DNA from: Brachyhypopomus gauderio
Lineage: Eukaryota > Chordata > Actinopteri > Gymnotiformes > Hypopomidae
DNA: 64,000 nucleotides
Reading direction: 5' to 3'
Assembly: GCF_052324685.1 (NCBI RefSeq)
Contig: NC_135221.1
Coordinates: 302,501 to 366,500, forward strand
Positions 37,701-42,582 of the stretch are shown piece after piece (position 1 is the stretch's first letter; each line of letters opens with the position of its first letter). The notes beneath the pieces are model-generated. The model was given only the letters and a program-made list of their open reading frames with translations. It ran no database searches and was not told the origin of the DNA. Made by a program: the position numbers and the translations under genes.

Positions 37701-40700
37701 AAGGCCATCCGGCGTGATCTCTGAACACCGAGCACGGCTTCAGCACACTTACTGCGTGCTCTGGTCCAAATACGTGATGACCCGGTCTGCTTCCTCCTCC
37801 AAGCGTTTATTGACATGATGGAGATATTCAGGCACCTGTGGAGAACGTCCGTATCATGAGGAACCGTGCTGAAGTGTGGTGTGTACGGCTGAAGGGACGC
37901 TCCAGATTTGCCGTGTCGGTGATATCAGAGGAACGCATACACACTCTGGAGCAGGCGAACCTTCCCAACATGCACTTCACCTCTCTCTCCTGCATCAGCC
38001 GCTGGCCCTCCGCAGCATACAGTCGGTTGGTCTCTTCCAGAAAACGCTGCTCAAACGAATCTTGATAAATCTGTGAACAGACACAAGACGTGCCATCAGT
38101 GGCCACAAGTCAGAGCAGAATTGTCAGGATCGTGTGTGCTTATGAACCATAACCCTTTGTTCTTAAGGAAGGATAAAGATTTTAAATAAAGGATTCAGTG
38201 ACAATATAAGGAATAAAAATACTTGGTAGTTGACAGTAACTGACATTTGGTTTTAGAAATAAAAACAGATACTTTCTGATGTGATGATGCATACATGACA
38301 ACATACCATACAAATCTGACACACACAACAAATATGGAGACACACAACAAATATGGAGACGGTCTCACACCAAATTCTTAAAGATTTTCAACATAGGTTT
38401 TCAATTAACAGTGAAATTTAATGACCTGTAAGACTCACTATGAGACTAGAAACTGGCCCAAAACCCACTGTAACAAATATGAAGAAACCTAACAGACAGA
38501 CACGCACACAGACAGACACGCACACGCAGACAGACAGACACGCACACGCAGACAGACAGGCCAACACGCACACGCAGACAGACAGACATGCAAACACACA
38601 CGTATTCAGACAGACACGCATGTTCAGACAGACAGACATGCGGACTCACAGACAGACTCACAGTCAGACATATACACAGATACACACATACAGTCCTACA
38701 CGGGCACACAGACAGACAGTCCAACACGCACACACAGCCAGACAGTCCTACATGCGCACACACAGACAGCCAGACAGCCCTACACGCACACAGCCAGACT
38801 CGCAGACACATCACCTGGTCGTACCTGTAAATCAGACAGCATGCCCAGCAGACTCCTGAGGAGGCTACGGTCTATGGCTTCACCGCTCCGCTCACGCTCG
38901 ATGAGCAGCAGGACACCGTCAATCGTCTTGCTCTGCACTTTCAAATCACTGATGATGTAGAAACGAAACAACTCTAGTCCCATGTCCCTAGAGGATTCAA
39001 AAGGGACATTTCACATATCAGAAAATTAACTCGAGCGTTAGCAGAGAAGCCAAGAGTGTCTCTCTCCGTGGAGACATTAATGAAGATAGGTTCCACTAGG
39101 AGGGGATACATACCAGATTGATGGCAGCATTGAATTTTGTAAAACATATGTGCGATCCAAAAACAAAAATATACTCCTAATCATGATCTGGTAAAATAAA
39201 ACAAACAAAAGACACGGTTTTGAGCTCACGTTTAAACACTAGCCACTGACGTCTGTATAGACCAACATACAGAAATACCAAAACTCTGACAACAAGAATC
39301 CAAACACGCACAAAAAAATAAATAAAATACAAAAATGCAGTGTACAACATGATTAACATCATTAACAGCAAAATCTAAAACTTTACTCAACAATGCAATT
39401 AATCAAATTGCAATTTGATGTCAGTACAGACATAACACTGGCAATATTGCCTGCATGTGACGTTATAAGAGGCCACACAGTAGCAACAGCAGGTCTCTTC
39501 TCATTACACCACAACATGACGGAGATCACAGGTCTAGTTTCCGAGTTAAGATTCCCCTTAAACACGAGAGGCGGAAAACTTGAATAAATAAACTGGTTCT
39601 CTCACCATTTGTCTGCAGTGATCTTGCCAACATTTGTCTATTTTCTTCAAGAAAAGCACGCTGTCTAGGGACTCCGTGGAAGCAAGAAAGGTCATGAAAG
39701 GTCAAGAAAAGTCACGGTGGGGAAAGGGGGGGGGGGGGGTGCAATATTTCCAATAACTGTAAATACATGTGTACAATATTTCCCCACAACAATTTACATT
39801 TGAGATCTACAGCACATGATTCACACTGATTAGACTTCAGTAAACTGTGGGTTACTGAAGTTACTGGGTTTAGGCTACTGTGGGTTTTTCTCAGTGAACA
39901 CAACAGATCCTCCAATACTGACAGCACTCGTCATGCTGAGAAGGATATTCTCGGAACTGGGTGATTTGTGCCTTGATGTGGTCTTCACAAACAGCTCTCA
40001 GCTGTTTATACAGCTTGGCAGATATTTTATGAGAACACAGATTCTCAACAGCCTAAAAATGCAAAAAAATATATGATTTAGTGACAACAGCCTAAACTCA
40101 AACATCCCATTAATAGAAATACTGACAATCCTGAAAGAAAATTTGCAGAGTGCACTTGTCTCTAGTCTGTGCTGTGGTATCACGCTTTGAATTGAGAAGG
40201 CATTTCCTCCACCTAAACTTCTTTCTGTACGCCATCCAGAGCTCCTCTAGGTGAGCTGTGCCTACCCGACAGAGCTCCTCTAGGTGAGCTGTTCCTACCC
40301 GACGGAGCTCCTCTAGGTGAGCTGTTCCTACCCGACAGAGCTCCTCTAGGTGAGCTGTTCCTACCCGACAGAGCTCCTCTAGGTGAGCTGTTCCTACCCG
40401 ACAGAGCTCCTCTAGGTGAGCTGTTCCTACCCGACAGAGCTCCTCTAGGTGAGCTGTTCCTACCCGACAGAGCTCCTCTAGGTGAGCTGTTCCTACCCGA
40501 CAGAGCTCCTCTAGGTGAGCTGTTCCTACCCGACAGAGCTCCTCTAGGTGAGCTGTTCCTACCCGACAGAGCTCCTCTAGGTGAGCTGTTCCTACCCGAC
40601 AGAGCTCCTCTAGGTGAGCTGTTCCTACCCGACAGAGCTCCTCTAGGTGAGCTGTTCCTACCCGACAGAGCTCCTCTAGGTGAGCTGTTCCTACCCGACA

Positions 40701-42582
40701 GAGCTCCTCTAGGTGAGCTGTTCCTACCCGACAGAGCTCCTCTAGGTGAGCTGTTCCTACCCGACAGAGCTCCTCTAGGTGAGCTGTTCCTACCCGACAG
40801 AGCTCCTCTAGGTGAGCTGTTCCTACCCGACAGAGCTCCTCTAGGTGAGCTGTTCCTACCCGACAGAGCTCCTCTAGGTGAGCTGTTCCTACCTGACAGA
40901 GCTCCTCTAGGTGAGCTGTTCCTACCTGACAGAGCTCTTCTAGGTGAGCTGTTCCTACCTGATAGAGCTCTTCTAGGTGAGCTGTTCCTACCTGACAGAG
41001 CTCTTCTAGGTGAGCTGTTCCTACCTGACAGAGCTCTTCTAGGTGAGCTGTTCCTACCTGATAGAGCTCTTCCAGGTTGTACTTTATTGAAGTGCTGTTC
41101 TGTATGGCCTCCACTGCTTCTTTCAACTTTTGCCACGTCTCAAGTGTGTAATTTTCTGGCAATTTTGGTTTTTCTGTGAAAAGTGATACAAGATGTGCAA
41201 TGCAGCATAAATAATATTGACATCTGAACTCTGAACATTAATTCTATATATTATAATGTGCATTTCATTGTAAAGCATGTTTTTGTTTTTATATAAACAT
41301 ACAAACCCTCCAGAAATTGTTTAACCCCCCCCCCCCCACCTTAGACACTCCAACTCTGTACTTATTCATACTATTCACAATCCCCCCCCCCCCCCCCCCA
41401 CCCTGACAGGAAAAGCACCAATGTACTAATACCCGAGTCAACCACTAGCAATCAAAATAAATGCCATGAAAGTGACTTTTCCCCCTAAACATCAGCTGCA
41501 TTTGTGCATTTTGTTTTATGTTTACTTTAGTTTATTTAGTGTGTGCACGTTAGAGGGAACTATAACTGCAACAGTGTATAAAACAAGAAATAAAGAAACA
41601 AAGGGAAACTTGTTACCTTTAAAAGGTAAAGTGAACTCCAGTCTTGATACCCACAATCCACTATGTTACTCTAAAGGGAAAACTTATATATTCTATTTAT
41701 ATGTTAGTGCTATAATGCATTAATGAAAGTGGGCTCAACCTACTGAGTTGCAAAATTAATGCCCAAGCAAGCATATGCAACAATTATTCTATATGATACT
41801 GTCATACAGTATTTGTCATTTACCTAATAAAACGTGGACACTGCACACACTAGTATAGTTCATAGGATTCAAATGACTTTGTACTCTACACATCAATCAT
41901 TTTATTATGAGTAACATCCATTTAAAATATAACTGTACGAACTGCGTTACCTACTGGTTAAAAGTAGGTGTGTCTGGTTCTGCAGGTGTATAACGTGCAC
42001 TGCAAGAATTCTGACTCGTGTAAGCAGCACGAACTTGACCTTAAATCACAAAACACCTGCGTGTGTGTTTATCACCGTGATGATCTTCAGGGAGCATCTC
42101 CACTCATGTGCAGATTAAGTGAGTAGTGAGTAGAGCAGATGTTTCTCCAGCCCAAACTCACCTTTAAAGTTCTTGATGACAAGTTTCTTGGCAGCTCCGG
42201 GTTTGCTGCTGGCGAAGGTGGCAGAGCCGGCGGGTTTGGTCAGTCCGTTGGCGTGATGTCCCCCCCCGGACAAGAAGACACTCTTGGCCTTGGAGCAGGA
42301 CGCTGCTGGAGGCTCCTCGGCCATCTTCACATCCAGACCGATGAACTCCACCGGGTCTTCAAACCTCAGCCTCTTCTGGATGTGCTGTGAGCTGGAGGAG
42401 CAGGTGGTGGAGGAGGAGTTGCACACGGCTTTAGGAGACGAGGACAGGGAGTCGGTGTCTTCCCTCTCAGTGGTGATTCTCCTCTTCTTGGAGGTGGTGA
42501 AGCTGCTGTCGGTGCTCACATCAGAAGATCTGGCCTCCTGTGGCCGTGGGGCGCTAGGGGAAGGTAGACCTGTTGGAAACAT
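34703..42582 (-). CDS. CUL4B: CUL4B cullin scaffold of CRL4 ubiquitin ligases
   Basis: Scaffold binding DDB1 (N-terminus) and RBX1 (C-terminus). Twenty coding exons in order: 42162-42582, 41058-41173, 39949-40052, 39606-39675, 39114-39187, 38825-38987, 37981-38070, 37753-37835, 37579-37646, 37297-37415, 37000-37192, 36751-36855, 36477-36587, 36257-36342, 36061-36168, 35847-35960, 35506-35611, 35137-35309, 34890-35042 and 34703-34798. The total is 2553 nt, 850 aa. The start [10 protein letters not shown] matches the shorter human CUL4B isoform. The Ser-rich extension with KKRR (nuclear signal) and KKLVIKNFK marks CUL4B rather than CUL4A. The neddylation lysine lies in [13 protein letters not shown] at about residue 796, and the tail is NQYNYVA. 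Two oddities: the 5' splice site after residue 179 is tandemly amplified, and the next intron (39949 to 39675) looks U12-type AT-AC. Confidence 0.97.
38490..38815. repeat. CAGACAGACACGCACACG-type degenerate repeat
   Basis: Compound (CAGA)n/(CACACG)n low-complexity DNA in a CUL4B intron, ending about 10 bases from the donor of exon 38825-38987. Confidence 0.88.
40232..41073 (-). repeat. 33-bp minisatellite derived from a CUL4B exon-intron junction (amplified 5' splice sites)
   Basis: On the CUL4B strand the exon end GAAGAGCTCTATCAG then GTAGGAACAGCTCACCTA is followed by about 25 further 33-base units. Near the exon each reads GAAGAGCTCTGTCAG before GTAGGA; farther away GAGGAGCTCTGTCGG before GTAGGA. 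Each unit thus has about 15 exon-like and 18 intron-like bases. Because 33 is a multiple of three and the exon ends in phase 0, the frame stays open through the array, encoding [11 protein letters not shown] units until a stop at 40110-40112. The next exon (40052 to 39949) starts in phase 0, so use of any copy as donor would leave CUL4B in frame. Confidence 0.96.
41328..41400. repeat. Poly(C) tracts
   Basis: Two C homopolymers (41328-41337 and about 41382-41399) in a CUL4B intron. Confidence 0.85.

Follow-up and report, generated by a model that had tools for sequence, protein, structure and literature searches.

Tandem arrays called mirage minisatellites have been described in amphioxus, in Adh3, the globin genes BflGb6 and BflGb9, and TnC (PMC3087553, PMC3902484), and the repeats of PGBD5 have been likened to the Adh and TnC arrays (PMC3902484). 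According to the available excerpts of these reports, the units measure 10-72 bp in Adh3, 60 and 108 bp in PGBD5 and 150-160 bp in the globins, and the BflGb6 array, with 3 and 6 units in its two haplotypes, has a homogenised interior and divergent edges (PMC3087553). The same excerpts suggest that mirage arrays leave normal splicing undisturbed (PMC3087553, PMC3902484). Here we describe an in-frame 33-bp array at the boundary of exon 2 and intron 2 of CUL4B in the gymnotiform electric fish Brachyhypopomus gauderio, within a window of 64,000 nucleotides (RefSeq assembly GCF_052324685.1, contig NC_135221.1, positions 302,501 to 366,500 of the forward strand), whose numbering is used throughout. 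We consider it probable that this array is a genuine minisatellite of the mirage type whose effect is near-neutral and that the first donor dominates splicing.

The human gene IFI6 (G1P3, 6-16) is reportedly another host of a splice-donor minisatellite, attributed to Turri et al. 1995 and said to be built of 12-bp units where exon 2 ends, which would likewise keep this repeat in frame. The accessible text on that gene (PMC4526556) reports that two of its downstream repeat units serve as splice donors and that three mRNA species result. Human segmental duplications also contain internal tandem repeats at exon-intron boundaries (De Grassi and Ciccarelli 2009, PMC2812944); as far as the available part of that paper goes, these boundary minisatellites have a mean unit of ~30 bp and can change gene structure and splicing.

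A 33-bp donor array in CUL4B

CUL4B lies on the minus strand of a contig of 24,819,669 bases (C11) in the 796.5-Mb B. gauderio assembly. The product of our joined gene model is identical at every residue to the annotated 'cullin-4B isoform X2 [Brachyhypopomus gauderio]', and it matches the Pfam families Cullin (residues 154-751) and Cullin_Nedd8 (782-842). Judged by its sequence, the gene is CUL4B, being a full-length cullin with a neddylation domain and nearest to CUL4B. The gene model upheld two boundaries given in an earlier note made from the letters of this stretch, namely the phase 0 end of exon 2 after residue 179 and the start of exon 3 at 40052.

Tandem Repeats Finder (TRF) reported a period of 33, 25.5 copies and 98% matches at 40237-41077, and counting from the native donor gave 25 units of 33 bp, from 41057 to 40233, directly behind exon 2. 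The roughly 25-fold amplification of the CUL4B donor claimed in the earlier note is thus real. Its unit make-up of 15 exon and 18 intron bases did not hold: the lag-33 periodicity begins 20 nt inside exon 2 (41077) and runs on into intron 2, which gives a unit of ~20 exon-like and 13 intron-like bases. Eighteen of the 25 units are identical (units 6-22 and unit 24), unit 23 carries one change, and units 1-5 and 25 are divergent. With the native donor numbered D0 and the splice junction marked by a slash, D0-D5 read CAG/GTAGGA, D6-D23 CGG/GTAGGA and D24 CGG/GTAGGC; the next position, ATG/GCGTAC, is a non-donor. The description of proximal CAG units and distal, homogenised CGG units therefore fits units 1-5 and 6-24, and the wording 'near copy of the genuine donor' suits D6-D24, whereas D1-D5 are exact 9-mer copies. 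Chance is excluded as the source of the array. A three-unit query of the species' own assembly, which scored the best candidates only, returned 13 overlapping matches, all at this locus, and a dispersed repeat was rejected on this ground. On the opposite (+) strand of the consensus unit (40237-41077) we also observed a donor-like TAG/GTGAGC with a score of 9.2, compared to 8.58 for the CUL4B donor.

Each donor was scored with a splice-site model, as the earlier note had proposed, using a crude matrix of donor base frequencies, and pairing energies with the end of U1 were calculated. The native donor scored 8.58, fourth among the 18 GT donors of CUL4B, and D1-D5 scored the same, while D6-D24 scored 6.25 relative to a CUL4B donor mean of 6.40 (n = 18, native included). 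The U1 pairing energy was -10.7 for the CAG donors and -10.0 for the CGG donors. Because matrix score and U1 energy are only modestly lower, the distal donors appear weakened but still alive.

Read in the exon 2 frame, the 25 units are free of stops throughout, so an in-frame stop precedes 0/24 of the extra donors, and the stop-to-stop open reading frame (ORF) that enters before exon 2 closes only past the array (Table 1), as the earlier note had it. A protein search with CUL4B carrying two inserted units, in which residues 135-260 were scored, returned 1798 proteins at E 0.001; among the best 120 of these, EELYQAVENL crosses the junction with no insert in 120/120. The sole B. gauderio CUL4B protein model examined, isoform X2, likewise uses the first donor and carries no insert. 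An array-only query found no array protein among proteins of ~619-1969 residues, giving two weak matches (E up to 1, 4938 candidates), both named as tetratricopeptide repeat (TPR) proteins, and an array query against proteins of ~272-864 residues scored 7996 candidates, none of which reached E 0.001. Together, the isoform without insert, the best 120 of 1798 matches without insert and the searches without an array protein speak against the length-variable protein insertion listed in the earlier note, and a protein role for the array, though conceivable, finds no support here.

The exon 2/3 junction lies inside the Pfam Cullin domain, and solved CUL4B chains cross it gap-free in three alignments, with CUL4A matches of equal span. 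When the ORF that crosses the array was folded as a single sequence, long helices resulted, with a mean predicted local distance difference test score (pLDDT) of 88 in the best model and 61-71 in the other four; long helices are a frequent outcome of single-sequence folds of repeats. The same kind of fold for isoform X2 was poor (mean pLDDT 38), with a weak helix call at residues 174-186. As we read these models, the junction would fall within helix 2 of the first cullin repeat, the repeat that binds DDB1; in CUL4A, helices 2 and 5 bind DDB1, according to the accessible part of the source (PMC1805432). An insert at the junction would thus be expected to harm DDB1 binding.

Table 1. Positions of CUL4B features and array elements in the window
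Feature	Position	Strand	Remarks
CUL4B coding span	34703..42582	-	20 coding exons, 850 aa, no defect; tblastn anchors and joined model
CUL4B coding exon 2	41058..41173	-	116 nt, phase 0, ends ...NLEELYQ at residue 179
Native 5' splice site D0, CAG/GTAGGA	41052..41060	-	implied by annotated isoform X2
Intron 2	40053..41057	-	1005 nt, the array being most of it
CUL4B coding exon 3, AVENLC...	39949..40052	-	gene model
Whole periodic region, lag 33	40237..41077	-	841 nt = 25 x 33 + 16
Units 1-5, CAG type; donors D1-D5 at unit ends, native 9-mer	40893..41057	-	
Units 6-24, CGG type; donors D6-D24 at unit ends	40266..40892	-	
Unit 25, degenerate last unit (GTAGGC..., end CTGGATG), no donor after	40233..40265	-	
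Stop-to-stop ORF, from before exon 2 through the array	40110..41237	-	
R1, exon copy of putative 16-base founder repeat	41062..41077	-	left periodicity edge
R2, distal intronic copy of putative founder repeat	40237..40252	-	right periodicity edge

Origin of the array and explanations weighed

The two edges of the periodicity (41077 and 40237) are occupied by R1 and R2, which are identical at 13 of 16 positions, and the length of 25 x 33 + 16 is what one would expect had the array grown between a pair of imperfect 16-base repeats on either side of the donor. At the three differing sites the exon base is found in units 1-4, in unit 3 only and in none, respectively, with the intron base otherwise. 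Mismatches to the 21-base exon tail number 3, 3, 2, 3 and 4 from unit 1 onward and then mostly 5, with 6 in unit 23 and 7 in unit 25. Two observations support the outward growth from a genuine splice site suggested in the earlier note: the unit holds the real boundary, and units further from the exon tend to differ more from its tail. We propose that the array may have been seeded by a pair of imperfect 16-base direct repeats, an exonic and an intronic one lying 33 bases apart around the donor, and that it would have arisen by slippage during replication, or by unequal exchange, at the boundary of exon 2 and intron 2. The array would then have expanded and been homogenised in the intron, the exon copy being kept by selection, and R2 would be older than the array. 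Slippage between short direct repeats around the donor, followed by homogenisation, is the simplest account.

A second cullin gene bears on the age of the intron. This gene, on contig C20, was named CUL4A-like in this analysis and shows 60-83% identity over four matched pieces; it has an intron at the same point, whose donor, read by eye, is CAG/GTAGAG. No tandem repeat was found in its 3.1-kb locus, which covers all but ~65 bases of that intron. An array-free intron at the corresponding place in the CUL4A-like gene means that the intron existed before the array. Tandem genomic duplication is a known route of intron gain, and we rejected it for CUL4B since by this comparison the intron is older than the array.

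We compared the array with base rates of minisatellites (period 9-100, at least 4 copies) in the window and in a non-random 200-kb sample of the B. gauderio genome, to which each of 20 contigs contributed a single 10-kb stretch from a fixed place. The sample holds 38 minisatellites covering 5.7% of its bases and the window 17 covering 12.4%, about twice as much. Of all 33-bp positions in CUL4B, 15.5% would span a splice site; with minisatellites so frequent, an array that covers a splice site calls for no particular explanation. Across the window and the 20 genome samples, the period is divisible by 3 in 19 of 55 minisatellites, so that the in-frame property is roughly a one-in-three event and unremarkable, and a special meaning of the 33-nt length was rejected. 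With both strands considered, 10 of the 55 arrays, that of CUL4B included, hold a 9-mer that equals or exceeds the score of CGG/GTAGGA, and 2 of the 55 hold one that equals or exceeds CAG/GTAGGA, the CUL4B array being counted there via its opposite strand. Two other minisatellites in the window are large, one at 18808-21031 (32 bp x 69.5) and one at 54219-55656 (13/26 bp x 109/54).

In the near-neutral reading, which was among the options of the earlier note and which we prefer since isoform X2 uses the first donor and no array-bearing protein was found, most splicing would keep the first donor beside the intact exon and the array would persist in the intron as near-neutral sequence. If a later donor were used now and then, no nonsense mRNA would result, because each copy adds 11 sense codons, and this may explain why the array is tolerated. 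Several points weigh against this reading. D1-D5 match the score of the native donor, D6-D24 stand near the gene mean with a nearly native U1 energy, and predicted RNA accessibility (0.016 for D0, 0.0003-0.025 for D1-D24) fails to set D0 apart from the other donors. First-donor use is taken from one annotated model, whose label X2 implies that an X1 should exist, and the sequence cluster of isoform X2 has 3 members. As regards the origin, the founder-repeat step is drawn from edge positions, where a 13/16 match has a chance of ~4e-6 at the given offset, and a later deletion could likewise leave a partial last unit. IFI6, with two used downstream donors as told in the accessible text (PMC4526556), is a precedent for the opposite behaviour.

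If the downstream donors, mainly D1-D5, were used appreciably, some CUL4B isoforms would be longer by n x 11 residues, on the pattern of IFI6; we regard this as unlikely. It would draw on the equality of D1-D5 with the native donor, the divisibility of 33 by 3 with no intervening stop, the IFI6 precedent (PMC4526556, as available) and the helical prediction for the array as protein, a weak one from a single sequence. According to the accessible part of one study (PMC8890436), an in-frame stop precedes more than 98% of the latent donors in human, and a stop-dependent suppression has been proposed there; such suppression would not apply here because the array is stop-free. Against this stand the annotated isoform without insert, the intact junction in the best 120 of 1798 proteins, both array-protein searches, and the position of the insert, which would hit the predicted helix 2 of the first cullin repeat, a helix that in CUL4A is among those binding DDB1 in the portion of the report at hand (PMC1805432). 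A more specific version seems less likely still, in which the array is polymorphic and acts by copy number: the first few donors would be used in some tissues and add 11, 22 or 33 residues, helix 2 would lengthen, DDB1 binding would weaken and CRL4B would be tuned. Were it true, each unit would add ~three turns to helix 2 of the first cullin repeat, and individuals would differ in CRL4B activity according to the length of their array.

We give even less credence to a field of decoy donors, in which the 24 extra donors would bind U1 and adjust the efficiency of splicing, the retention of the intron or the level of CUL4B, with array length as the dial. The 24 extra U1-complementary sites within one 1-kb intron are consistent with it, as are 25 TAGG motifs, which we take to be hnRNP A1-like; no result here separates a regulatory role from passive sequence. 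Least probable of all is an assembly artefact in which the true array is short, for although copy number is error-prone because 18 of the 25 units are identical, the differences between proximal and distal units follow an order and the locus lies within a 24.8-Mb contig, with no second copy found by the three-unit query; as this artefact is compatible with any of the other readings, the likelihoods we assign need not sum to one.

Other repeats of CUL4B and neighbouring genes

Intron 3 of CUL4B (39676-39948, minus strand), next to the array, begins ATATCCTT and ends AC, ends that resemble those of an AT-AC U12-type intron. A 10-bp x 3.2 tandem repeat (39683-39714) overlaps the branch-site-like TTTTCTTGACC stretch of this intron, so that another splice signal seems to be repeated there. 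A 41-bp x 2.7 repeat lies at 42663-42774, ~80 bases upstream of the CUL4B start codon.

On the plus strand, a 36-bp x 6.9 minisatellite at 46683-46930 lies in the open frame 46439-47110, apparently in a Thr-rich stretch of a LAMP2-like gene, and is probably a coding in-frame repeat of this neighbour; the ORF 46439-47110 gave no Pfam match. The ORFs 47996-48178 and 49576-49809 (+) each match Pfam Lamp2_2nd, a transmembrane segment, which suggests alternative 3' ends of the LAMP2-like gene. On the other side, the ORF 27526-28518 (+) looks C1GALT1C1-like by eye, with no match in Pfam or NCBIfam, and an exon at 30963-31406 (-) carries a Pre-PUA domain and is MCTS1-like. We take the order C1GALT1C1-like, MCTS1-like, CUL4B, LAMP2 to resemble that of human Xq24.

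Comparison with known systems

Six identical 9-mer donors and 19 CGG donors, 33 nt apart and stop-free, amount to a natural experiment on 5' splice-site choice. Stop-free donors are not numerically rare, since 43,702 potential stop-free in-frame alternative donors were counted in human introns, according to the accessible part of that survey (PMC8890436); the unusual feature is a ladder of them in one intron. The CUL4B locus thereby offers a test bed for position effects and for the model of stop-dependent suppression. We found no literature pairing CUL4B with splicing or repeats, most subscription papers being outside the coverage of the search, and we do not claim that the case is unpublished.

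Like the amphioxus mirage arrays, the CUL4B array has a unit that spans the exon-intron boundary and carries splice signals, and it shares with BflGb6 a uniform interior (units 6-22) between divergent edges (units 1-5 and 25). Unlike them, it consists of 25 x 33 bp, with 24 units ending in a donor copy, all in frame, and its host is a fish ubiquitin-ligase gene. With human IFI6 it shares repeat units at an exon end that are potential in-frame donors, the downstream donors being reported as used in IFI6 whereas the downstream copies of CUL4B are known as sequence only. The cases of De Grassi and Ciccarelli concern recent duplicated paralogues with a mean of 4 copies, compared to one locus and 25 copies in CUL4B. 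These comparisons point to the CUL4B array as a new fish case of the known mirage-type kind, which stands out by its 25 copies, wholly open frame and six identical donors and which extends the amphioxus and human examples to fish.

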